From a virus: DNA of 21,150 nt. A program made the translations under genes and the position numbers. Below, piece by piece: positions 1,551-20,981 of this stretch. The stretch spans positions 1-21,150 of the IMG/VR virus record IMGVR_UViG_3300046458_000159; one strand, given 5' to 3'. The stretch's first letter is position 1; the number at the start of each line of letters is the position of its first letter. A model generated the notes under the pieces. It searched no databases. It saw only the letters and a program-made list of their open reading frames with translations, and was not told the DNA's origin.

Positions 1551-2588
1551 TTATGATAAACCCTGCTTGCTAAAGATAAAGCAATCAACGTTCTCTGGAC
1601 TCTCGTATGTGTCAAGAATTAGAGGACGTTCCGTTCTCGGCCGGATATAACCACTTCGGATAGAGTGGGTATATACGCCGACATTTACATTATTCCTGCG
1701 GGCTCTTGCATCGACAGCTACGCTATCAATACAGTAATTCATTGCACTGCCATTACCGCAAAGTTCACCGCCGCTATTTACCATCCGGGATGAATCCTGA
1801 CCTTCCATGACTACACCCCAGGCATTCTGTGTTGGCCCACCACCAGCCTCTGTCCCGGTGCAGTAGCAATCAATGACTGAGTTATTGCTACCGCCGTTAT
1901 CAATAAGGACAAGCGACCGCCCAGTCCAGTTAACAGAGGTAATATCCTGAATAGTGCAATGCTGGCCGTAGTGAATATGAACTCCGACAGCAGAGTTCCC
2001 TGTGAACTCCAGGCCTCGAATTATAACGTTACGAATCGGCACGCACGTAGCAACAATGGCTCCATCCGGATGTCCTTTTTTGAGAACATTGTTGATCACC
2101 AGCGACCCGCTGAATACTCGAATAACCTGCCGAACTTCCATAGGACCATCAAGTGGAAGCGGCTGCCTATGGAAGTCTGTTGAAGCATCGGAAATTACAA
2201 TCCAGTCCCCAGCAACATATTTTGTCGGATCATCGACAAAAATTTCATTCTGATTCAGAAAAGCTTCCCGGGTTAAAAAACTTGCAGGCCGGACCTTCCC
2301 TTGATAATCAAACGCTGCATAGCTCGGATCGGTAGGTACTTCCGGATTTCGACCAATTCCGCTTGAGTCAATAAGCACCTTCTCAATGCCTGGTGCGGGC
2401 TCAATGACCAGACCGTGAATCGGGGTTAGGTCGGCCTTATTCAAGGGCACGGTAGTCTTGATCGGGCATACGTCGCGGTTAATTTGAATCCAGCGATATC
2501 CGGCTTGAATAATTGATCTGAGCTGAGGCCCATTGTCGAGCGTGGCGCTTGGCGTGAATACATATGGTGTTGCGTAGTACACAGACAT
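1551..2588 (-). CDS. Stand-alone phage tailspike-like protein with right-handed beta-helix, SOS-box promoter
   Basis: The 345-residue protein has an N-terminal part typical of tailspikes (polar, with a YRWIQINRDV segment near residue 35) and then, from about residue 185, successive short V/I/N/G-rich coils such as NVIIRGLEFTGNS and CTIQDITSVNWTG. These resemble a pectate-lyase-type parallel beta-helix. Such domains bind or cleave surface polysaccharide. The start ATG has a good ribosome site (CAGGAG, 6 bases upstream). No other tail gene adjoins it, and it is short for a tailspike (usually over 550 residues), so the receptor-cleaving C-terminal part may be missing. A perfect LexA box lies 42 bases upstream of the start. 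It converges on the O-antigen polymerase gene. The fold assignment is from pattern only; catalytic residues were not identified. Confidence 0.65.
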   Translation of the reverse strand: MSVYYATPYVFTPSATLDNGPQLRSIIQAGYRWIQINRDVCPIKTTVPLNKADLTPIHGLVIEPAPGIEKVLIDSSGIGRNPEVPTDPSYAAFDYQGKVRPASFLTREAFLNQNEIFVDDPTKYVAGDWIVISDASTDFHRQPLPLDGPMEVRQVIRVFSGSLVINNVLKKGHPDGAIVATCVPIRNVIIRGLEFTGNSAVGVHIHYGQHCTIQDITSVNWTGRSLVLIDNGGSNNSVIDCYCTGTEAGGGPTQNAWGVVMEGQDSSRMVNSGGELCGNGSAMNYCIDSVAVDARARRNNVNVGVYTHSIRSGYIRPRTERPLILDTYESPENVDCFIFSKQGLS

Positions 2589-2629
2589 GACTTCTCCTGA
2601 TTAGTGGCTATCCTTAACCACTCGACATA

Positions 2630-2645
2630 CTGTACATGCATACAG
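2630..2645 (-). promoter_or_regulatory. LexA (SOS) box upstream of the tailspike-like gene
   Basis: The sequence CTGTACATGCATACAG fits the gamma-proteobacterial LexA consensus CTGT-N8-ACAG in all eight conserved positions and is nearly palindromic. Read on the minus strand it sits between a possible -35 (TTTTGA) and -10 (TATGTC) spaced by 17 bases. LexA binding there would block transcription of the gene starting at 2588. A small 6-bp leader hairpin (TGGTTA-AGGA-TAGCCA, about 2606-2621) lies between the box and the ribosome site. Confidence 0.75.
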
Positions 2646-2805: not shown

Positions 2806-3895
2806 AATCCTGTGGTCGCTCAAGCAGAAGCGCCGCCCTCGAGATCCCGTTGACCCGCTCTGCCAAAGCATTTTGGTAGCAGTCATAGCCGCCCGTCATG
2901 GAACACCGGATGCCGTGTTTCGCGTACTGTTCCTGGTACATTCCCAAGCGATACTGGCCGGCTCTATCCGAGTGATGAACCAGTGGCTGCGCGGTTTGAT
3001 CCTGACTCACGGATCAACGCAACCTGCACTACCGACTCGGTGTGCAGACTTTCATGGACCTGGTAACCACGATCTTTCGCGAAAAAGCATCCGTCACAAG
3101 TCTCAGATAGGCCACACCTTCCTGAACGGGCAGTTAGGTGATGTCAGCCACCCAGACTTGTTCCGGGCAGGTTGGAACAACCTGTTCAGGACCCGGTTTG
3201 AGTAGGTTCGAGTGGCGCAGAAAGCGATGATGACTGTCGGTCGTCTTGTGATATGCCCGCTTGCGGACCACCAGTAAACGCCTTCGGTGCAGGATCGAAA
3301 ACAGCCGATCTCGCCCCACTTGCAGTTCTAGTTGAGGCTGGCAACGCAGCAAGTGGTGCAGCTTTCGGGTACCCAGACGCGGCCGACGCTGACGTTTTTG
3401 CTGAACGAAGTCGGCAACTTTCTGATCCAGAACCAGACGAGTTGCATCGGTGCGATTGCGTTTGTAGTAAGCCTGTCGGCTTATCCCCAAAAACTGGCAA
3501 GCCCTGCTGATGCTCAGGTTTTGGATTGGTTTATGCGCGAGGAATTGCCGGGACGCTTTTTTACGACAGAGAGACCATAGGCGTTTTTCAAGACATCCAC
3601 GACCGCCTCGAAAAACTGCGCTTTTTGTTTGGAAAACGCCAACTGTTCTTCAAGCATCTTTGATGCGTTGCCATGGCGTTAGTGGTCGTTTTCTGTCGGG
3701 CACAGACCCCATCCCGGCGAGCCAATCTATGTGCCGGGGTCCACTCTTGCCGACCACGCTTGCGTAACCACGTCAGAACGGTCGTTTTGCCTTGGATCCC
3801 GTAGCGCTCTTGAGCCTCTTTATAGCCCAACTCGCCTTTTCGATTTGGTCGACGACCGACAATTTAAAGGTCAGCGTGTAGTCTCGCTAGCTACA
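2806..3895 (-). pseudogene. Degenerate IS3-family element (orfA and orfB remnants)
   Basis: Read on the minus strand, the remnant begins with an orfA-like helix-turn-helix region (KLSVVDQIEK, then GYKEAQERYGIQGKTTVLTWLRK), followed by an orfB-like part (GISRQAYYKR, then VADFVQQKRQRRPRLGTRKLHHLL) and a DDE-type integrase core (VWVADIT, later HHSDRAGQY and YDCYQNALAERVNGI). It is dead. A base is missing in the A-run in orfA near 3838. TAC has become TAA right after VADIT (3134-3136). A base is missing soon after the SRKIV codons near 3080. The element stops in the Rz scrap at about 2806. The right boundary at about 3895 is approximate, because clear terminal inverted repeats were not found. Confidence 0.8.
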
Positions 3896-3974
3896 CCTTT
3901 TTCCTATCTCCATTACGCCCTCCTGGAAATAGATCAGAAGGTGTAGACCTCATTCAGGACGAAACACAGACAAC

Positions 3975-4005
3975 AAAAAAGGGCCCACCTTTCGGTGAGC
4001 CCTTC
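3975..4005 (-). terminator. Intrinsic terminator of the tRNA-Val transcript
   Basis: On the minus strand an AAGGGCTCACC / GGTGGGCCCTT hairpin with a short CGAA-type loop (one mismatch in the stem) is followed by six T. It lies just 3' of the tRNA fragment, as expected for the host terminator of the original tRNA gene. This places the host/prophage boundary inside the tRNA and makes the sequence immediately to the left host DNA. Confidence 0.8.
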
Positions 4006-4033
4006 TAGACCGCCCAGCAGAGCGGATTTTGTT

Positions 4034-4082
4034 TGGTAGGCGCGATTGGACTCGAACCAACGACCCCCACCATGTCAAGGTG
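4034..4082 (-). repeat. 3' half of tRNA-Val(GAC): left attachment site (attL)
   Basis: On the minus strand the sequence runs from the 5' side of the anticodon stem (CACC), through the loop TTGACAT with anticodon GAC, the variable region GGGGGTC, the T-arm GGTTCGAGTCC, and the acceptor strand to an encoded CCA at 4036-4034. It matches the familiar bacterial tRNA-Val(GAC) 3' half. The 5' half (D-arm and acceptor 5' strand) is absent: beyond 4082 the sequence no longer fits. This is the classic result of a phage integrating at the anticodon arm and carrying its own copy of the 3' half. The reconstituted complete tRNA should be at the other end of the prophage, beyond the window's right edge. Confidence 0.85.
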
Positions 4083-4558: not shown

Positions 4559-4574
4559 CTGTATGAACATACAG
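4559..4574 (+). promoter_or_regulatory. LexA (SOS) box upstream of the coiled-coil gene
   Basis: CTGTATGAACATACAG is a perfect CTGT-N8-ACAG match located 19 bases before the ATG at 4593. It overlaps the likely -10 region (TACTGT), where a bound repressor would block initiation. The gene would therefore be expected to switch on with the SOS response, together with CI inactivation. Confidence 0.75.
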
Positions 4575-4592
4575 CATTCGGAAGCACACCCC

Positions 4593-4949
4593 ATGAACAT
4601 CGATGAAGACACCTGCGAGTGGCTTGGATGCCCTACACCCCTGGAAATGTACAAACATCATGCGGCCATGCTCGAGGACGAGATAAGCGACCTACAGCTC
4701 CACCTGGCCAAGTCCCGGGCAAATATCGCTGGACTGGTGCAAATGAATGACACGCTGCTTATTGCCAAAGCTCGGGCCGAGCGATCTCTCAAGGACGCTT
4801 TAGAACGCATATCGGGGAAGAGCCAAGAACCTGCTGAGACAGGGAGCTTTCGCCCTATCGACCTAATTACCGAGCAGCGCGACCATCTGTTCAGGGAGAA
4901 TCAACGGCTGCTGGCCGAGCTGAAGAGCCTCAAAGAAACTTCAGCCTAG
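4593..4949 (+). CDS. SOS-box-controlled coiled-coil phage protein, function unknown
   Basis: The product is 118 residues from the chosen ATG, preceded by GGAAG. An in-frame ATG at 4563 lies inside the LexA box and is unlikely to be used. After a short N-terminus with two cysteines (C8 and C13) and the segment PTPLEMYKHHAAMLEDEI, the chain is a long heptad-like helix to about residue 70. A polar linker follows, then a second helix (LITEQRDHLFRENQRLLAELKSL). It looks like a dimeric coiled-coil protein. It overlaps the convergent gene at 4941-5150 by nine bases. No family was recognised. Confidence 0.6.
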   Translation: MNIDEDTCEWLGCPTPLEMYKHHAAMLEDEISDLQLHLAKSRANIAGLVQMNDTLLIAKARAERSLKDALERISGKSQEPAETGSFRPIDLITEQRDHLFRENQRLLAELKSLKETSA

Positions 4950-5233: not shown

Positions 5234-5920
5234 ATGTGCGGAAGACTTTCCCAGTACAGCGGCATTCATGACTTCGTTGCAGCGCTGAGCATGCCAAATG
5301 CACTGGCGAACTCCGTGGGTGAGTTGCCCCTGGAGCGGTACAACGTCGCCCCGACAACCCAAGTCGCCCTGCTACACCTGCAGGGCGATCTGCTGCATGC
5401 CGACCTGGTGCGATGGGGATGGCGGCCGCACTGGGCCAAGGACCGCGCAGCGCCGATTAATGCCCGCGTTGAGAAGGTGGCCCACGGCCCATTCTTCCGC
5501 GCAATCTGGCCGCACCGGGCAATCACGCCCATCGACAACTGGTTTGAGTGGGTGGACGAAGGCGGGCCCAAGAAGCAGCCCTACCTGATCCGCCGGCGGG
5601 ATGGCGCACCCGTCCTGTGCGCCGCCATTGGCCAACTGCCCGACAGCGACGAAGGCCCGGGCGAGCACGACGGATTCGTGATCATCACCGCCGACAGCGC
5701 CGGCGGAATGGTGGACATCCACGACCGGCGCCCGGTGGTGCTGACGCCGGACCTAGCCCGGGAATGGTTGGACCCGGACACGCCCAAGGAGCGCGCCGAA
5801 CAGATGGTGCTGCACCAGGGCGAACCCGCCGAGGCCTTCGAGTGGTTCAAAGTCGACACTGCCGTGGGCAATGTGCGCAACAAGGGGCCTGAACTGATCC
5901 AGCCGATCAGCGAGCAATAG
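5234..5920 (+). CDS. yedK: SRAP-domain protein (YedK/HMCES type), abasic-site DNA crosslinker
   Basis: The 228-residue protein begins MCGR, so Cys2 becomes the N-terminal nucleophile after Met removal. In this family that Cys forms a stable thiazolidine crosslink with abasic sites in single-stranded DNA, shielding them during replication. The other active-site residues are in their usual contexts: N76 (INAR), E105 (WFEWVDEG) and H163 (VDIHDRRPVVL). Full length matches the family. The ribosome site is GGAGA, and the start is fixed by MCGR. The gene lies on the plus strand facing the lysis genes, overlapping the last bases of the spanin gene (5907-5920), so it is an accessory gene rather than part of the late operon. 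An intact SRAP gene beside LexA-box genes suggests an SOS-time role (inference). Confidence 0.92.
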   Translation: MCGRLSQYSGIHDFVAALSMPNALANSVGELPLERYNVAPTTQVALLHLQGDLLHADLVRWGWRPHWAKDRAAPINARVEKVAHGPFFRAIWPHRAITPIDNWFEWVDEGGPKKQPYLIRRRDGAPVLCAAIGQLPDSDEGPGEHDGFVIITADSAGGMVDIHDRRPVVLTPDLAREWLDPDTPKERAEQMVLHQGEPAEAFEWFKVDTAVGNVRNKGPELIQPISEQ

Positions 5921-8913: not shown

Positions 8914-9260
8914 TATCGGTACTTCATCACTAGAAGCCTCTGTGTGGCCAGCCCTGGGGCCGGCGGCGAAGACGGATTTATGCTCCGGTTAACGTACCAA
9001 ACCCTTACTACCCCGGACATGACCTGGGGTTCGTATTGGATTGCGTTCAGATTCTGTGCGCTGGGATCTTCAGGGTATGGCGCGGTCGGAACGCATACAG
9101 CGCTGCAAGTTGCTGGGTCACAACCAGCAACCGTTATGTCGCTATACAGTGTGCCGGCCGGGCGGGTTACCAAGGCCGAGTAGATAACCTGCACAGTGAA
9201 AGAGTTTTCATCCAATTCAAGGAGGCCCGTAGGCCCCCAAACTCTCGCCCCATAGCTCAT
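8913..9260 (-). CDS. Small tail-tip associated protein downstream of gpJ, function unknown
   Basis: The product is 115 residues from the ATG at 9260, which overlaps the stop of the J fusion as ATGA and has GGGGGA about 9 bases upstream. An in-frame GTG six codons earlier is less likely. The protein begins MSYGARVWGPTGLLELDENS, resembling a small beta-rich family that accompanies tail-tip protein J. It contains three cysteines in one stretch (residues 47-61). Coupling at both ends places it in the J operon. Confidence 0.6.
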   Translation of the reverse strand: MSYGARVWGPTGLLELDENSFTVQVIYSALVTRPAGTLYSDITVAGCDPATCSAVCVPTAPYPEDPSAQNLNAIQYEPQVMSGVVRVWYVNRSINPSSPPAPGLATQRLLVMKYR

Positions 9261-10387
9261 GCTGAAAGATCCCCCCACTGGTATCGCTTCACACCGTTCT
9301 CATCGAACACCTTGCCACCGGCGTTGTTGATTACCTGGCGTGCCTGGCCGCCGAGCGAGCTATTGATTTCAAACGTCCCGTCGAAGAACAACTTCCAGCC
9401 GGCAATACCTGCCTGGTAATTGTTCGACTGGATGTAGTTGCCGATCTTGGCGTTGGTGATCGTCCCGTCCTGAATCATGGCGGAGCTCATGAACACCTGG
9501 CCGCCCTGAACTACAAACGGCGTGGTGAAAGCACCACCATCGATTGTGTTCACTACGGCAAATCGATCAGCACTCACCAGGAACTGGCTTTGCAACAAGC
9601 CATCGGCGCCCTGCTCGATACCCAGTCCAATCCCGGCGGCAACATACTGACCATTGGCATTGATCTGCATTTTTACTGCCCACATCGTAGACAGCTTGCC
9701 GGCGGTGTCAGCCTGGGCCCTGGCCGTGACCTGAATCGCCGCCTTGTTCTTCACCTCGCTGATAGCGCTGGCCAGGTCTCCCTCGTCGGTACCGTCCCGC
9801 CCGCCGCCAACAACCGCCTGAAGCGTGGTGGACTGTGAGGCGACGGCCTTGCTGGTGTCGGCCAGGGAATCGGTGACCGTCTGAACAGCGGCCGAGTTTT
9901 CATCAACCTTCGCCTGTGTCGTGTCGATTTTTTGGCCCAGAGCGGTGTCCGCATTCGCCCGGGCGATTGCCTCTTGGTTGATCGCCGCGCCGTTATTGCC
10001 GACGGTGACCCCCATCTGTTCGATGCGAGTCCCAAGAGCACTATCGGCATCAGCCCGAGTCGACGCTTCACTGCCAATCGCAGCAGTGTTGCCATCGACA
10101 CTGCTTTTCAACTGAGCCAGTCGTGTCGCCGAAGCAAGGGTTTCAGTGGCCACCACCTGCTCAAGCGAGGTAAGCCCGGCCCTGTTCTGCCCTACCGCCG
10201 CATCCAGCGACGTGGTGCGCTCAACCAGTGCTCGGTTGGCCTGCTCGACCGAAATCACACGCTCCGCTGGGACTCGCCCAGAGGCACACCAGCGCTGTAC
10301 GTTCTGTGGCGTGCAGCCAAGAACGCGAGCAAGGGCCGACTGGCTGCCTGCTGCCTTAGCTGCACGCTCTGCTGCATTAGGTTCCAT
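9257..10387 (-). CDS. Chimeric protein: Cro/YdaS-like DNA-binding domain fused to the C-terminal part of tail-tip protein J
   Basis: Residues 1 to about 48 read as a Cro/YdaS-type helix-turn-helix (ERAAKAAGSQSALARVLG, then CTPQNVQRWCASGRVPAERVI), exactly where cro is expected: divergent from CI and just behind the operators. From about residue 50 the sequence changes to the alanine/threonine-rich coiled coils typical of the lambda gpJ C-terminal region (repeats of ADADSALGTRIEQ, ANADTALGQKID type). It then runs into the tail-tip end: AIQVTARAQADTAGKLSTMW, DGTITNAKIGNYIQSNNYQAG, and YQWGDLSA. gpJ is normally over 1000 residues; only the last 325 or so are present. The frame is open throughout with a proper GAGGA ribosome site. 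It is best explained by an in-frame deletion from cro to J. Confidence 0.85.
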   Translation of the reverse strand: MEPNAAERAAKAAGSQSALARVLGCTPQNVQRWCASGRVPAERVISVEQANRALVERTTSLDAAVGQNRAGLTSLEQVVATETLASATRLAQLKSSVDGNTAAIGSEASTRADADSALGTRIEQMGVTVGNNGAAINQEAIARANADTALGQKIDTTQAKVDENSAAVQTVTDSLADTSKAVASQSTTLQAVVGGGRDGTDEGDLASAISEVKNKAAIQVTARAQADTAGKLSTMWAVKMQINANGQYVAAGIGLGIEQGADGLLQSQFLVSADRFAVVNTIDGGAFTTPFVVQGGQVFMSSAMIQDGTITNAKIGNYIQSNNYQAGIAGWKLFFDGTFEINSSLGGQARQVINNAGGKVFDENGVKRYQWGDLSA

Positions 10388-10410
10388 AGAATCCTCGTTA
10401 AAACTTCAAT

Positions 10411-10485
10411 TACAACTCAAAGTTACAGACTTTCGAATTTCACTACAAGTGAGAATTGCAATGCTCGCTACAAGTGCTGGTTGTA
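10411..10485. promoter_or_regulatory. Right operator region oR/pR with three 17-bp CI/Cro sites
   Basis: Three 17-bp sites share the form TACAA-N7-TTGTA: 10411-10427 (right half TTACA), 10444-10460 (right half TTGCA) and 10469-10485 (perfect). Centre spacings are 33 and 25 bp. On the minus strand a candidate pR has -35 TTGTAG (10448-10443) and -10 TAACTT (10425-10420) with a 17-base spacer, so the first two sites cover it. The third site abuts the start of CI and could control the repressor's own promoter. Confidence 0.7.
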
Positions 10486-10496
10486 TTCTCACTTTC

Positions 10497-11213
10497 ATGA
10501 CTACTACCTCCTCACGCATAGCCGCAGCACGAGAAGCGCAGGGACTCAATCAATCTGAGTTAGCCCGCAAGCTTGGCGTTAGCCCTCAGTCGGTCCAGGC
10601 ATGGGAGTCGGGGCGCTCAACTCCTCGAAACCCGCGCATCAAACATCTGAGCGAAGTGCTTGGCGTCTCAGTGGCCTACCTGATGGGCGAATCTGGGCCA
10701 GCCGAATCACACAGCGTCACTGCTGACACCTCTCTGCAAGCAATCGAAACCTGGGACGAAAGCACCCCTCTTGATGACGATGAGGTCTACGTCCCCTTTC
10801 TTCATGAGGTTGAGCTTGCGGCCGGATCTGGAAGATTCGCGATCGAGGAAAGCGACAGCTCTCGGCTGCGGTTCTTCAAGAAGGATCTGCGGCACAACGG
10901 TGTGCAATTCAGTAATGCAAAATGCGTGGTTGTAAGCGGAAACAGCATGGTTCCGGTGCTGCGAGACGGCGCAACCGTGGGCATCAATATTGGAAAAAAC
11001 ACGCTGAAGGACGTGGTTGATGGGGAGATGTACGCCATCAACCACAACGGGCAGCTCAGGGTTAAGCAGCTGTTTCGCCTACCCACAGGCATTCGCCTGC
11101 GCAGCTTCAACCGCGATGAACACCCTGATGAGGAGTACACCTTTCAGGAGATCCAGGAGCAGCAAATCGGCATTCTGGGCCATGTGTTCTGGTGGGCGAT
11201 GTACTCCCGCTAA
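10497..11213 (+). CDS. CI-type phage repressor with LexA-like self-cleavage domain
   Basis: The product is 238 residues from the ATG at 10497. Residues 7-62 form a helix-turn-helix of the XRE type (LNQSELARKLGVSPQSVQAWESG). The C-terminal half is a LexA/S24 peptidase. The likely cleavage site is A109-G110 (ELAAGSG), the catalytic serine is S150 (SGNSM) and the general-base lysine is K190 (LRVKQL). RecA-stimulated self-cleavage would remove repression during SOS. There is no ribosome site before this ATG, so the message may be leaderless, as from lambda pRM. A long in-frame upstream extension (from 10146) overlaps the J fusion and the operators and is rejected. It is divergent from the Cro-like domain and flanked on both sides by matching operators. 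Confidence 0.92.
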   Translation: MTTTSSRIAAAREAQGLNQSELARKLGVSPQSVQAWESGRSTPRNPRIKHLSEVLGVSVAYLMGESGPAESHSVTADTSLQAIETWDESTPLDDDEVYVPFLHEVELAAGSGRFAIEESDSSRLRFFKKDLRHNGVQFSNAKCVVVSGNSMVPVLRDGATVGINIGKNTLKDVVDGEMYAINHNGQLRVKQLFRLPTGIRLRSFNRDEHPDEEYTFQEIQEQQIGILGHVFWWAMYSR

Positions 11214-11243
11214 CCATTGCGTAGTTTCACTCCAGAACCCTAG

Positions 11244-11267
11244 AGCCCGCCATTGAGCGGGCTTTTT
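11244..11267 (+). terminator. Intrinsic terminator of the repressor gene
   Basis: AGCCCGC-CATTGA-GCGGGCT is followed by TTTTT 30 bases after the CI stop. It separates the repressor transcript from the pL operon. Confidence 0.88.
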
Positions 11268-11312
11268 CATGCACTCTGAAATTACAAAAGCGCACCCCTC
11301 TGCAAAAATAAT

Positions 11313-11349
11313 TACAACCTAGGCTTGCACATTACAATTTTCAGTTGTA
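11313..11349 (+). promoter_or_regulatory. Left operator region oL/pL with two 17-bp CI sites
   Basis: Two sites match the same TACAA-N7-TTGTA pattern as on the cro side: 11313-11329 (right half TTGCA) and 11333-11349 (perfect), with centres 20 bp apart. A candidate pL promoter has -35 TTGCAC (11325-11330) and -10 TAGCTT (11348-11353) with a 17-base spacer, so bound repressor would cover it. This promoter would drive the plus-strand early arm toward the integrase. Confidence 0.7.
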
Positions 11350-11395
11350 GCTTTGTTCCATCGCCGGATAACAACCGGCCAGATGGAAGGCAGCG

Positions 11396-11542
11396 ATGAA
11401 CCGGCCTCAACGGTTCAGAGGGTTGGCAACTGACCCGGGCGTGCAGCGTAAAGCGCCAAGACGAGTTATCCAGCGGGAGAACAAGCCGAAGGGCCCGCGG
11501 CTGGAGAGACATTTGATTCAAGCCGGTGACCAACGCCAGTAG
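11396..11542 (+). CDS. Arginine-rich 48-residue ORF, first in the pL transcript
   Basis: The ORF starts with ATG after GGAAGG (7 bases) and encodes a very basic peptide: 11 Arg and 3 Lys in 48 residues, including RKAPRRVIQRENKPK. It has no membrane segment. Position (first ORF after pL) and basic character recall lambda-type N antiterminators, whose arginine-rich motif binds the boxB hairpin. The sequence is not recognisably N, so this is only a positional analogy. A small hairpin GCCGG-ATAACAA-CCGGC lies just upstream (11363-11379). Confidence 0.45.
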   Translation: MNRPQRFRGLATDPGVQRKAPRRVIQRENKPKGPRLERHLIQAGDQRQ

Positions 11543-11893
11543 CGGGTCACGGCCAGATCCAAACGATTTGAATTAGCGCTCTGAGCTTCGGCTATGAGGA
11601 GCGCCGGACCTCATGTGGTGTGCCGAACAAACTACCCAGGCACAGGGCTGTACGCCGCATGTTGTAAATACCCAATGACCACGCCGGTAACGCTGCTGAT
11701 CCAGCCGGAGTGACCAGGGAAGCCCGCCGCCGCACACGACTACCGAAACCTGCAATCAGCAGTGGGGAATAGGCACCAGCAACACGCACCGCTGACGCAA
11801 CAACCCCGGCCTGTCGCCAGTAGCGAGGCCGGGGGTTTCACCGATAGGCCTTGGCGACAGGGCCTAACGGGAAACCAACCGGGAGTCACAACG
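11543..11893 (+). other. Gene-free structured leader of the early operon
   Basis: No convincing gene was found in these 351 bases. Very short frames (for example 39 codons from 11594) lack ribosome sites. The 3' part holds two mutually exclusive hairpins. CCCCGGCCT (11804-11812) pairs with AGGCCGGGG (11826-11834). CTGTCGCCA (11811-11819) pairs with TGGCGACAG (11852-11860). Because they share bases, only one can form at a time. This suggests an attenuator or a processing structure ahead of the HTH gene (inference). Confidence 0.45.
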
Positions 11894-12274
11894 ATGAACG
11901 AGATCATCAACGGCGCATGGAAGGGTCACCTCGGTAGAGGCCTTGCGCCCAAAGAACTTCAGTACCTTCTGGCCGCCGCCCAGGGCATGACTGCCAAGGA
12001 AATCGCCAGGCAGTTCGACGTTGCAGCGTGCACCGTGGCCAAGCGCCTTTCCTGCGCAATGTTCAAGCTCGGCGTCACCCGCCAGACGGCAATGATCGCC
12101 GAGGCCATGCGCCGCCAAATCATCTCGCCGATGTGCTTCGTCCTGGCTGCCCTGATCGCCATGCACGCAATGATCGGTGACGAGTCGATGCGTCGTGACC
12201 GCCGGGTGCCGGAACGCCGTACAGCGCAAGTCAGGATGGTCCGCCGCGCCGAACAACCGGTGCTGCTCGCCTAG
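11894..12274 (+). CDS. LuxR-type helix-turn-helix phage regulator
   Basis: The product is 126 residues from ATG with GGGAG 8 bases upstream; the longer in-frame opening from 11762 crosses the structured leader and has no ribosome site. Residues 18-75 form a LuxR/GerE-type DNA-binding domain (LAPKELQYLLAAAQGMTAKEIARQFDVAACTVAKRLSCAMFKLG). There is no sensory or receiver domain. A hydrophobic helix (MCFVLAALIAMHAMIG, about residues 79-94) and a basic tail (RRDRRVPERRTAQVRMVRR) follow. Stand-alone GerE-type proteins are common in Pseudomonas prophages. It probably acts on early or accessory phage promoters, but the target is unknown. Confidence 0.78.
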   Translation: MNEIINGAWKGHLGRGLAPKELQYLLAAAQGMTAKEIARQFDVAACTVAKRLSCAMFKLGVTRQTAMIAEAMRRQIISPMCFVLAALIAMHAMIGDESMRRDRRVPERRTAQVRMVRRAEQPVLLA

Positions 12275-12310
12275 TCCATGAGGTGGCCACTGCCTGCCCA
12301 GTGAGCGAGC

Positions 12311-12392
12311 TACGGAGGATAGGCGGCCATGTGAACCATGAGCGATTGAAGGCGCCTATCGCGCCGACCTGCGATCACATAGGGAGGTCTGT
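12311..12392 (+). promoter_or_regulatory. Structured leader with start-stop codon pair
   Basis: GGAGG (12314-12318) is followed by ATGTGA (12329-12334), a start codon directly followed by a stop. An 8-bp perfect inverted repeat, GATAGGCG (12318-12325) and CGCCTATC (12353-12360), encloses it and touches the ribosome site. A second strong ribosome site (GGGAGG, about 12382-12387) precedes a GTG that opens into the terminator at 12404-12431. This looks like a translation- or attenuation-type control region, but no known RNA family was recognised. Confidence 0.35.
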
Positions 12393-12403
12393 GTGACGCA
12401 ACG

Positions 12404-12431
12404 AAAGCCCGGGCAACCCCCGGGCTTTTTT
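12404..12431 (+). terminator. Strong intrinsic terminator within the early operon
   Basis: AAAGCCCGGG pairs perfectly with CCCGGGCTTT around a 5-base loop, followed by further T. It lies between the HTH gene and the next early gene, so downstream genes need read-through, antitermination or their own promoter. Confidence 0.85.
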
Positions 12432-12532
12432 ACGCCTCGCCTTTATCCGTCAGCACCCTCCCCTGCGCCCAACGGCAACCAGCAGGCGGTCAGGCTGCTG
12501 ACGAATAAACGCAACCCACTGAGGTATCCGCC

Positions 12533-12814
12533 ATGCACGCATCAGTTCAACAGCGAGTCGATGGGGTTGCGGCCCTGCGAGTTCGCTCCCGCATTGCCAC
12601 CGCCGAGTTCTATGCCCTGATCGGCAAGGAGCAGCCCTTGCAACAGATTCGCTTCCAGGTCATCACCCGCGGCAACGCTTACCACATCGTGGAGCGCTCC
12701 ACCGGCAAGGTGAAGGGCTTCCGCTGGACCTGGAAGGAAGCAAGCAACTTTGCCCAGGAGCTTGAATCTCGTGCAGATGGCGTGAAGGTGACGCTTTCAG
12801 GCGGTGCGCTGTGA
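12533..12814 (+). CDS. Small phage protein, function unknown
   Basis: The 93-residue protein has GAGG 9 bases before its ATG. It appears to be a compact alpha/beta domain, with ITRGNAYHIVERSTGKVKGFRWTWKEASNFAQELE as its most distinctive part. The last codons overlap a GTG start of the next gene (GTGA at 12811-12814), showing coupling. It has the look of a conserved early protein of Pseudomonas prophages. No catalytic motif was seen. Confidence 0.65.
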   Translation: MHASVQQRVDGVAALRVRSRIATAEFYALIGKEQPLQQIRFQVITRGNAYHIVERSTGKVKGFRWTWKEASNFAQELESRADGVKVTLSGGAL

Positions 12815-17552: not shown

Positions 17553-17912
17553 ATGCCTGAAGAAAATGGAAAGCACTGGAACGGCGAAGGATTGCCGCCT
17601 GTTGGAACAAACAGCGAAGCATTCAGCGCTCGGACAGCGACATTTCGGCAATGCACAGTTCTGGCCCACCGCAACGGAATGGCTGTAGTTAGCTTCCTCG
17701 ATCAGGAGGAATTGCAGTGGGCCACAGAGTTTCGCTCGGCAGACAAGGCAGCAGCCGATGCACGGGATTCCGCCATCAACCTGATGATCGGTCACGTCAA
17801 AGATCACCCGGGTGGTCGACACGGTGCGCCGCACCTGACGCAACTCAAGATTCAGGAAGAGGCATGCCGAGACCTGTACGACGCTGGGTACCGCAAAGAG
17901 GTGACGCCATGA
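17553..17912 (+). CDS. Hypothetical phage protein
   Basis: The product is 119 residues from the ATG at 17553, preceded by AAGGA. The same frame is open back to 17448, but that part overlaps the cupin gene and looks untranslated. Sequence features are a mixed alpha/beta chain (RQCTVLAHRNGMAVVSFLDQEEL) and a helix with histidines (NLMIGHVKDHPGGRHGAPHLTQ). No motif was recognised. Its stop overlaps an 18-codon ORF (ATGA at 17909-17912). Confidence 0.6.
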   Translation: MPEENGKHWNGEGLPPVGTNSEAFSARTATFRQCTVLAHRNGMAVVSFLDQEELQWATEFRSADKAAADARDSAINLMIGHVKDHPGGRHGAPHLTQLKIQEEACRDLYDAGYRKEVTP

Positions 17913-19611: not shown

Positions 19612-19845
19612 ATGGCACGACTTATTGCGCAGATCACAGTAAAGCTGCCGCGCCTCATGGAGGCCGGCGAGTACAGGAAGTTGCGGTATGTCGGCGGAAA
19701 GCCGAGCCTGCAGCAATTGAAGAAATGGATTGAGGAAGGCGAAGTGATCGGAGAGGTAAAAGGCGGGATGTATTTCGTCGATGTGCAGGCAGCAATCATG
19801 GGTTCGAGTGACCCGCTGCTGGCGAAGATGCTGGAGATAGGCTGA
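19612..19845 (+). CDS. xis: Excisionase-like DNA-binding protein
   Basis: The 77-residue protein has a strong ribosome site (GGGAGG, 5 bases). After a short strand (RLIAQITVKLPRLMEAGEYRKLRYV), the segment GGKPSLQQLKKWIEEGEVIGEVKGGMYFVDVQ is a winged-helix pattern as seen in MerR/AlpA/Xis-type excisionases. Its TGA overlaps the integrase ATG (TGATG at 19843-19847), so the two directionality proteins are made together. Xis family proteins bend attL/attR DNA and steer integrase toward excision. Confidence 0.75.
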   Translation: MARLIAQITVKLPRLMEAGEYRKLRYVGGKPSLQQLKKWIEEGEVIGEVKGGMYFVDVQAAIMGSSDPLLAKMLEIG

Positions 19846-20981
19846 TGGCTGCCCGGCCCCGCACGCTGCAAAACAGAAAGCTGCCGCCAAACCTTTACCC
19901 TAATGGGAAGTACTGGCGGTACCGCAACCCGGTCACCGGCGTGATGACCAGCATCAACCGCCGCCTGGAGGAGGCAATCAAGCTGGCCCGGGCAGCAAAC
20001 CTCAAGTTTGCCGAGCTCGTCGTCGATGACGGCTCGCTTCTGGCGGTGCTGACCGGCGACCGCCTGCCTATTGTGAGCAACCTGCTCACGCGATTCGAAG
20101 AGGAGTGGCTGCCGGACCGGTCATATGCCGCGCGCACCCTCGAGGAAATCAAGTTCAAGCTTGAGCGGTACCGGCAGGATCTGGGCGACCGGCTGATAGG
20201 CCAGTTGGATGTGCTGGCCATGGCCGAATACCTCGACAACTTCAGCAACAACGCCTACACGAAGCACCGCGGGCTGTGGGTGCAGATCTTTGCCTTTGCA
20301 GTAGCCAAGGGCCTGGCCGAGCGTAACAACGCCGAGCTGACCCTGGTGAAGAAAGAGGCCGAGAAGAAGCGGCAGCGCCACACGCTCGACGGTTTGAAGT
20401 TGATCATCGAGGCGGTAACCACGCCTCCCTGGCTGAAGCGGGCAATCCGCCTGGCCCTGGCCAGCCTCCAGCGCCGGGACGACATCGTCACTTGGCTCAA
20501 GTCCGCTGCGGACATGGAGAAGAACACGCTCACCGTCTCCCCCGGAAAGACCCAGGGTTATGAGAACCCTGTGCACCTCAAAATCACCATGGGCGCTGCG
20601 CTGCGGGAGGTGGTCGGGGAATGCCTGCGCTCGCCGCTCGCGTCGCCCTACCTGATCCACTACAAGCCCAAGGCCCGCCGGCGGGAACAGATCGACGCCA
20701 AGGACCACTGGACATCGGTGACGCCTGACTACCTGACCAAAGAGTTCAGCAAGGCCAGGGACGCTGCGCATGCCTACGATCATGTGCCGGCCGGTGAGCG
20801 ACCCACTTTTCACGAGATCCGCGCGTTGGGTGCCTGGCTGTATGAGCAACAGAAATTCCCACAGGAATACATCCAGGCGCTCATGGGGCACGCGGACGAG
20901 AAGATGACGAAGCACTATCAGGAGGGGCACGACGAAAAGAAGATCGAGTACCTGGAGGTGGGCGCCGAATTGGCGTTCTGA
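19845..20981 (+). CDS. int: Phage tyrosine integrase (lambda type)
   Basis: The 378-residue recombinase has an N-terminal arm-site domain (LPPNLYPNGKYWRYRNPVTG, about residues 13-32), a core-binding helical domain (about 75-170) and a catalytic domain. The catalytic residues are visible: R210 (SLQRRDDI), K235 (SPGKTQG), H323 and R326 (FHEIR), H349 (LMGHADEKM) and Y358 (TKHYQ). It reads toward the missing attR, the usual orientation in which integrase sits next to the attachment site. It is expected to recombine within the tRNA-Val anticodon arm. The catalytic set is complete, so the enzyme may still be active, although excision also needs an intact attR beyond the IS. Confidence 0.95.
   Translation: MAARPRTLQNRKLPPNLYPNGKYWRYRNPVTGVMTSINRRLEEAIKLARAANLKFAELVVDDGSLLAVLTGDRLPIVSNLLTRFEEEWLPDRSYAARTLEEIKFKLERYRQDLGDRLIGQLDVLAMAEYLDNFSNNAYTKHRGLWVQIFAFAVAKGLAERNNAELTLVKKEAEKKRQRHTLDGLKLIIEAVTTPPWLKRAIRLALASLQRRDDIVTWLKSAADMEKNTLTVSPGKTQGYENPVHLKITMGAALREVVGECLRSPLASPYLIHYKPKARRREQIDAKDHWTSVTPDYLTKEFSKARDAAHAYDHVPAGERPTFHEIRALGAWLYEQQKFPQEYIQALMGHADEKMTKHYQEGHDEKKIEYLEVGAELAF

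Follow-up and report, generated by a model that had tools for sequence, protein, structure and literature searches.

The window analyzed here, the whole of a 21,150-nt IMG/VR virus record, covers a Pseudomonas prophage region that carries near one end a stand-alone gene for a tailspike-type beta-helix protein, a predicted mini-depolymerase (Table 1). This mini-tailspike gene has its own ribosome-binding site, is preceded by a perfect LexA box, and converges with an O-antigen polymerase gene. An initial annotation had pointed to these elements, all of which were recovered, the box lying 41 nt from the start codon. It had also placed the gene apart from any other tail gene. Prophage tail and lysis genes lie 3.3 to 8 kb away on the same strand, so the statement holds only in part, although a tRNA-Val att core and an insertion sequence remnant do separate them from the gene.

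The neighboring prophage, with its integrase, tail, and lysis genes, ends at this att core, and the mini-tailspike and wzy genes lie beyond it, behind the IS3 remnant and the remnant of an Rz gene. The module matches positions 9784 to 12591 of a Pseudomonas yamanorum locus (L002) at 90%, where att copies flank it at 9190 and 13010. Because the window module lies outside the att core and its counterpart is bracketed by att copies, we interpret it as what remains of an older prophage that used this same tRNA and to which the wzy gene also belonged, given its position between the two att copies of P. yamanorum. At that locus wzy is frameshifted, and in a second Pseudomonas locus (L017) the partner is mostly deleted, leaving a 109-nt remnant; in both, the mini-tailspike gene and its box are intact. 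The neighboring window prophage contains an open reading frame (ORF) that fuses a Cro/repressor-like N terminus to the C-terminal part of a central tail fiber J protein, which indicates a large internal deletion and thus a defective prophage.

Table 1. Features of the window, with positions counted from its first nucleotide
Feature	Position	Strand	Evidence or remark
Wzy_C-type O-antigen polymerase/ligase gene	1-1329	plus	Pfam Wzy_C, E 3.7e-11, above cut-off; convergent with mini-tailspike gene
Mini-tailspike gene	2588 (ATG) to 1551 (stop)	minus	Uninterrupted ORF, 345 codons
Ribosome-binding site AGGAGA	2598-2593	minus	Sequence
Predicted 5'-UTR stem-loop	2603-2622	minus	8 bp, loop AGGA, z -1.7; between LexA box and ribosome-binding site
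Perfect LexA box CTGT-N8-ACAG	2630-2645	minus	CTGTATGCATGTACAG; 41 nt upstream of mini-tailspike ATG
Rz-type spanin gene, 3' remnant	2670-2806	minus	Directly upstream of box; resembles 3' ends of Rz genes in L002 and L004 and the window's intact Rz
IS3-family transposase remnant	2810-3960	minus	Frames broken; rve/rve_3 matches; between att core and module
tRNA-Val(gac) 3'-end att core	3971-4082	minus	112 nt, with 100% identity to the tRNA-Val region of L002; right end of neighboring prophage
Second perfect LexA box with 118-aa coiled-coil ORF	4559-4949	plus	Box 18 nt upstream of ATG at 4593
SRAP gene	5234-5920	plus	SOS-response-associated peptidase, phrog_1599
Cro/repressor-tail fiber J fusion ORF	9257-10387	minus	
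cI-cro region	10388-10500		Different, imperfect palindrome
Third CTGT-N8-ACAG match	17599-17614		Within predicted coding sequence
Integrase gene of neighboring prophage	19845-20981		

Perfect LexA boxes number three in the window, versus 0.18 expected from shuffling. Among 17 homologous mini-tailspike genes, 12 carry a perfect CTGT-N8-ACAG 39 to 52 nt before the start codon, and these represent about seven diverged lineages (genes with ~90% DNA identity being merged into one) whose upstream sequences otherwise differ. For any one 90-nt upstream stretch, composition predicts a chance of ~0.0012 of finding a box, and the rate observed elsewhere in these loci predicts 0.0046. In two related prophage contigs (L024 and L025), the box lies between TTTTTG/TTTATG (-35) and TATAAT (-10) elements with 16-nt spacing; the box of the recA promoter is likewise situated between -35 and -10. 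A box at the promoter and conserved in relatives is the signature of a LexA regulon operator, and we predict that LexA binds it and places the gene under SOS control, as had been proposed. An operator of the phage repressor was considered instead and rejected, as the window's cI-cro region lacks CTGT-N8-ACAG.

The five box-less genes are those of L027, L005, L028, and two Burkholderiales chromosomes. In L027 the gene follows a tailspike gene by 60 nt, and in L005 and L028 it stands behind the gene for a 569-aa acyltransferase. These three belong to Pseudomonas prophages, and their lack of a box counts against the reading favored below, as it means that the role of the protein does not depend on SOS control. 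Stem-loops of unlike sequence are predicted in the 5' untranslated regions of most relatives and are missing in some; since few fall clearly below shuffled sequences in energy, we refrain from calling them a conserved RNA element.

The second box of the window precedes another conserved, predicted SOS-controlled prophage gene, whose orthologues carry the same box in L004, L005, L026, and L028 and in phages VW-6S (where the orthologue is annotated as DarA-like) and SC_8_H2H8_2017. Together with the adjacent SRAP gene, it forms a small SOS-linked cluster at the right end of the prophage. The third match is probably due to chance.

Protein and profile searches showed that the mini-tailspike family is rare. 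Its 17 genes comprise the window gene, a gene with 99% identity (L004), two copies in P. yamanorum, two in the Pseudomonas genome G265 (L014/L017 and L016/L018), those of eight further IMG/VR prophage contigs (L005, L011, L012, and L024 to L028, with two copies in L026), and those of two Burkholderiales chromosomes (L003, from Trinickia fusca, and L020). The gene occurs in 2 of 399 sampled Pseudomonas genomes. No homologue was found by tblastn in 50,697 phage and 72,556 plasmid records, and neither a set of 398 genomes from the phylum nor one of 101 near genome G445 yielded anything new. Searching with an exact pattern for the best-conserved motif retrieved no further IMG/VR contig, and a relaxed pattern of the rungs gave 17 IMG/VR matches, none of them a homologue. 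No earlier description of such a gene was found in a literature search whose coverage left out most subscription journals.

The initial annotation had named two findings that would speak against its reading: homologues that always sit in full tail operons with longer C termini, which would make the gene a truncated remnant, and relatives without the box. Most relatives do carry the box, and homologues are never longer at the C terminus, although some adjoin tail genes. All are 343 to 347 aa in length, except for the Trinickia protein of 386 aa, and none of the 17 genes, which share the same limits, contains an internal stop. Close pairs have dN/dS values of 0.03 to 0.13, which indicate purifying selection and argue against a decaying fragment. 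A functionless piece of a former tailspike might well lie where this gene does, beside tRNA-Val among the remains of grounded prophages; yet the ribosome-binding site is conserved along with the box, and the gene outlives a broken (P. yamanorum) or deleted (L017) partner. We consider such decay very improbable and reject the remnant hypothesis on the grounds of uniform length, box conservation, and dN/dS.

Structure prediction is consistent with the beta-helix proposed from the letters. An AlphaFold2 (AF2) model from an alignment of 14 sequences reached a pLDDT of 72.8 (35 with a 6-sequence alignment), with residues 1 to 250 mostly above 80 and the C-terminal ~70 residues (278 to 345) poorly modeled; with only 14 sequences aligned, details of the groove are uncertain. 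The model resembles the right-handed beta-helix catalytic domain of phage depolymerases (Z 20 to 23), and these were the top matches in structure comparison: the Klebsiella K1 polysaccharide lyase (Z 22.6 over 292 residues), K64-1 S2-4 (21.9), phi297 gp61 (20.7), AP22 gp54 (20.5), KP34 gp57 (20.4 over 290 residues), and LKA1 gp49 (19.9). Other beta-helix enzymes ranked behind them (Z 15 to 18). The fold is clear in the model, and the Pfam Beta_helix match is subthreshold (E 0.0023). In sequence comparison, the match between the family profile and the LKA1 family was weak and not significant, profile comparison with the K1 lyase, KP34gp57, and the L024 and L012 tailspikes gave no match, and a search of PDB sequences with one protein or the profile returned only noise (histones, cyclophilin).

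The protein spans the catalytic part only, corresponding, for example, to residues 68 to 407 of the 634-residue K1 lyase chain. An N-terminal virion-binding domain is absent, as the alignment to tailspikes begins at residue 2 to 8 and the model at the beta-helix cap, and a C-terminal trimerization/carbohydrate-binding domain is absent as well, as the protein stops where the helix domain ends. The earlier suspicion that the short protein might lack its catalytic part is thus reversed: it is essentially the catalytic domain alone. In the model, a six-stranded beta-barrel insertion (residues 99 to 182), with a sequence pattern that resembles LKA1 residues 284 to 370, interrupts the helix. Enzymes that act as monomers typically have such an insertion, and it has been named a fingerprint of intra-chain active sites (PMC10653864). 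Invariant residues H204/H206, D230, E262/Q264/D265, and D288 lie on successive rungs. From these features, we infer that the protein is a depolymerase catalytic domain with predicted enzyme activity.

Against an enzyme stands the fact that no member of the family has a known activity. The fold and groove would also permit mere binding: a noncatalytic O-antigen lectin or decoy could mask the receptor or sequester it while the cell lyses, or it could keep other phages out. Moreover, the catalytic residues of LKA1 or the K1 lyase are not confidently traceable. For the catalytic His494 of LKA1 gp49 (PMC5701251), a short and weak profile match placed H204 there at 66% probability with a single sequence, which the family profile did not confirm (1.2%), and the catalytic Asp497 has no clear counterpart. 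However, the stacked H/D/E residues at the groove are strongly conserved across proteins of about 50% identity, and the nearest folds are enzymes, making a pure binding protein unlikely.

Pairing with polysaccharide-modifying genes, noted for the window, extends to the relatives. Protein clades follow the neighboring conversion gene: a convergent wzy in the clade of the window gene, a convergent 371-aa O-acetyltransferase gene (phrog_3333) in the L024/L011/L002b clade, and a 569-aa O-acetyltransferase gene on the same strand in the L005/L028 clade, the O-acetyltransferases being identified by Acyl_transf_3 and phrog_3333. Exceptions are L012, where no conversion gene adjoins, and L017 with its 109-nt remnant, both of which count against the reading favored below, and L016, a member of the window clade next to hexapeptide acetyltransferase and MaoC genes that may be host genes. 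Pairwise identities of mini-tailspike and partner proteins correlate (r 0.91), but much of this correlation stems from the separation of the two kinds of acyltransferase. Lysogenic conversion modules place an O-antigen polymerase or O-acetyltransferase gene beside late phage genes or at the att side, as is seen here, and the family supports the earlier suggestion of a domesticated or seroconversion-module origin. On one prophage contig (L026 9938-14953), two diverged mini-tailspike copies, each with a LexA box, surround an O-acetyltransferase gene.

The gene always runs in the late-gene direction and is last among the late genes, standing after tail or lysis genes in complete prophages. In L024, L025, and L027 it lies directly behind the tailspike gene, in L027 without a LexA box. 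This placement would suit an accessory virion spike, produced late as a structural companion of the main tailspike, for which the LexA promoter would supply no more than additional early expression. However, the protein lacks any adaptor or attachment domain at its N terminus, LexA control is ill suited to a virion part, the gene persists in relics that have no morphogenesis genes left, and there are homologues on Burkholderiales chromosomes, one with a signal peptide. We regard an accessory spike as unlikely, slightly more so than a lectin or decoy.

The chromosomal homologues (L003 9920-11080 and L020 1501-2544) lack a LexA box, and that of Trinickia has no obvious phage genes nearby. The N terminus of the Trinickia protein is a Tat-like signal, MKRRHFLTATATLAAAA, which fits action outside the cytoplasm. 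Secretion, as first proposed, is not borne out for the prophage forms, none of which has a signal peptide.

A bacteriocin-like role had also been put forward, for which there is no positive evidence. SOS control is typical of bacteriocins, and retention in relics that have lost their prophage could be expected of a weapon released upon DNA damage that strips the O-antigen of neighboring strains and sensitizes them to phage or tailocin. However, genes for immunity or export were not found, and the module between the att core and the window end contains neither of the hallmarks of tailocins and bacteriocins, which are a complete tail cassette or a killing domain accompanied by an immunity gene. 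The partner genes, moreover, point to the polysaccharide of the producing cell itself; we consider a competitor weapon improbable.

Several known systems share parts of this arrangement. Klebsiella phage KP34 gp57, like the active monomeric mini-enzyme obtained by trimming its C terminus, has the same beta-helix, beta-barrel insertion, and intra-chain groove (PMC10653864), whereas the full-length protein bears an anchor at the N terminus and a CBM/trimerization domain at the C terminus. The natural end of the window protein lies near the engineered cut, and a LexA box precedes its gene. The KP34gp57 study also speculates about catalytic domains within prophages that have become domesticated (PMC10653864). 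The O-antigen tailspikes LKA1 gp49, phi297 gp61, and D3 orf27 of Pseudomonas phages (PMC5701251) are alike in fold (Z 20 to 21) and differ as virion tailspikes of roughly 745 to 770 aa. In D3, phi297, and Marin, an LKA1-type tailspike gene is followed by a convergent wzy-beta gene, or by iap and an acetylase gene, in a layout like that of the window, although the D3 region, unlike the window gene, has no LexA box. Seroconversion cassettes (D3 iap/acetylase/wzy-beta and phrog_3333 O-acetyltransferases) also resemble the module in partner genes and convergent layout. Because D3 and its relatives show a similar layout, the novelty lies in the separate SOS-controlled mini-enzyme; to our knowledge, known phage seroconversion cassettes contain no SOS-controlled stand-alone depolymerase. 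LexA operators also occur on other prophage genes outside the repressor circuit. Among these, 186 tum, the Gifsy antirepressors, and dinI-like genes regulate induction or repair, and we know of no LexA-controlled prophage gene with a polysaccharide-active product.

The reading we favor, with a probability of roughly 55%, is that the gene is a moron of a lysogenic conversion module and encodes an SOS-induced mini-depolymerase that is released at lysis and acts on the converted O-antigen. In the lysogen, LexA would repress the gene while the convergent gene (wzy, or an O-acetyltransferase gene in relatives) changes the O-antigen of the host. Upon DNA damage, LexA would be cleaved and the enzyme made together with the phage. 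Lacking a signal peptide, it would accumulate in the cytoplasm until cell lysis sets it free to cut or trim the converted surface polysaccharide, and progeny virions would then probably be neither trapped on debris nor held up by sibling cells that have been converted. Both the window and P. yamanorum retain the module next to tRNA-Val as a grounded relic, the remainder of its prophage having disappeared.

More tentatively, the family may represent a two-part conversion system of temperate phages, in which an O-antigen rebuilder excludes other phages during lysogeny, a soluble, LexA-controlled depolymerase matched to that O-antigen strips it off upon induction and so frees the progeny, and hosts retain the SOS-released enzyme after the prophage has died. 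If the mini-depolymerase reading is right, the protein would be a natural monomeric mini-depolymerase of a kind made so far only by engineering, and the SOS response would be tied directly to remodeling of the cell's own surface polysaccharide. Pairs of enzyme and conversion gene would constitute ready-made sets with which depolymerases could be assigned to the polysaccharide modifications that they fit. The module also offers a testable answer to the puzzle of how the progeny of seroconverting phages escape from a lysate filled with O-antigen.
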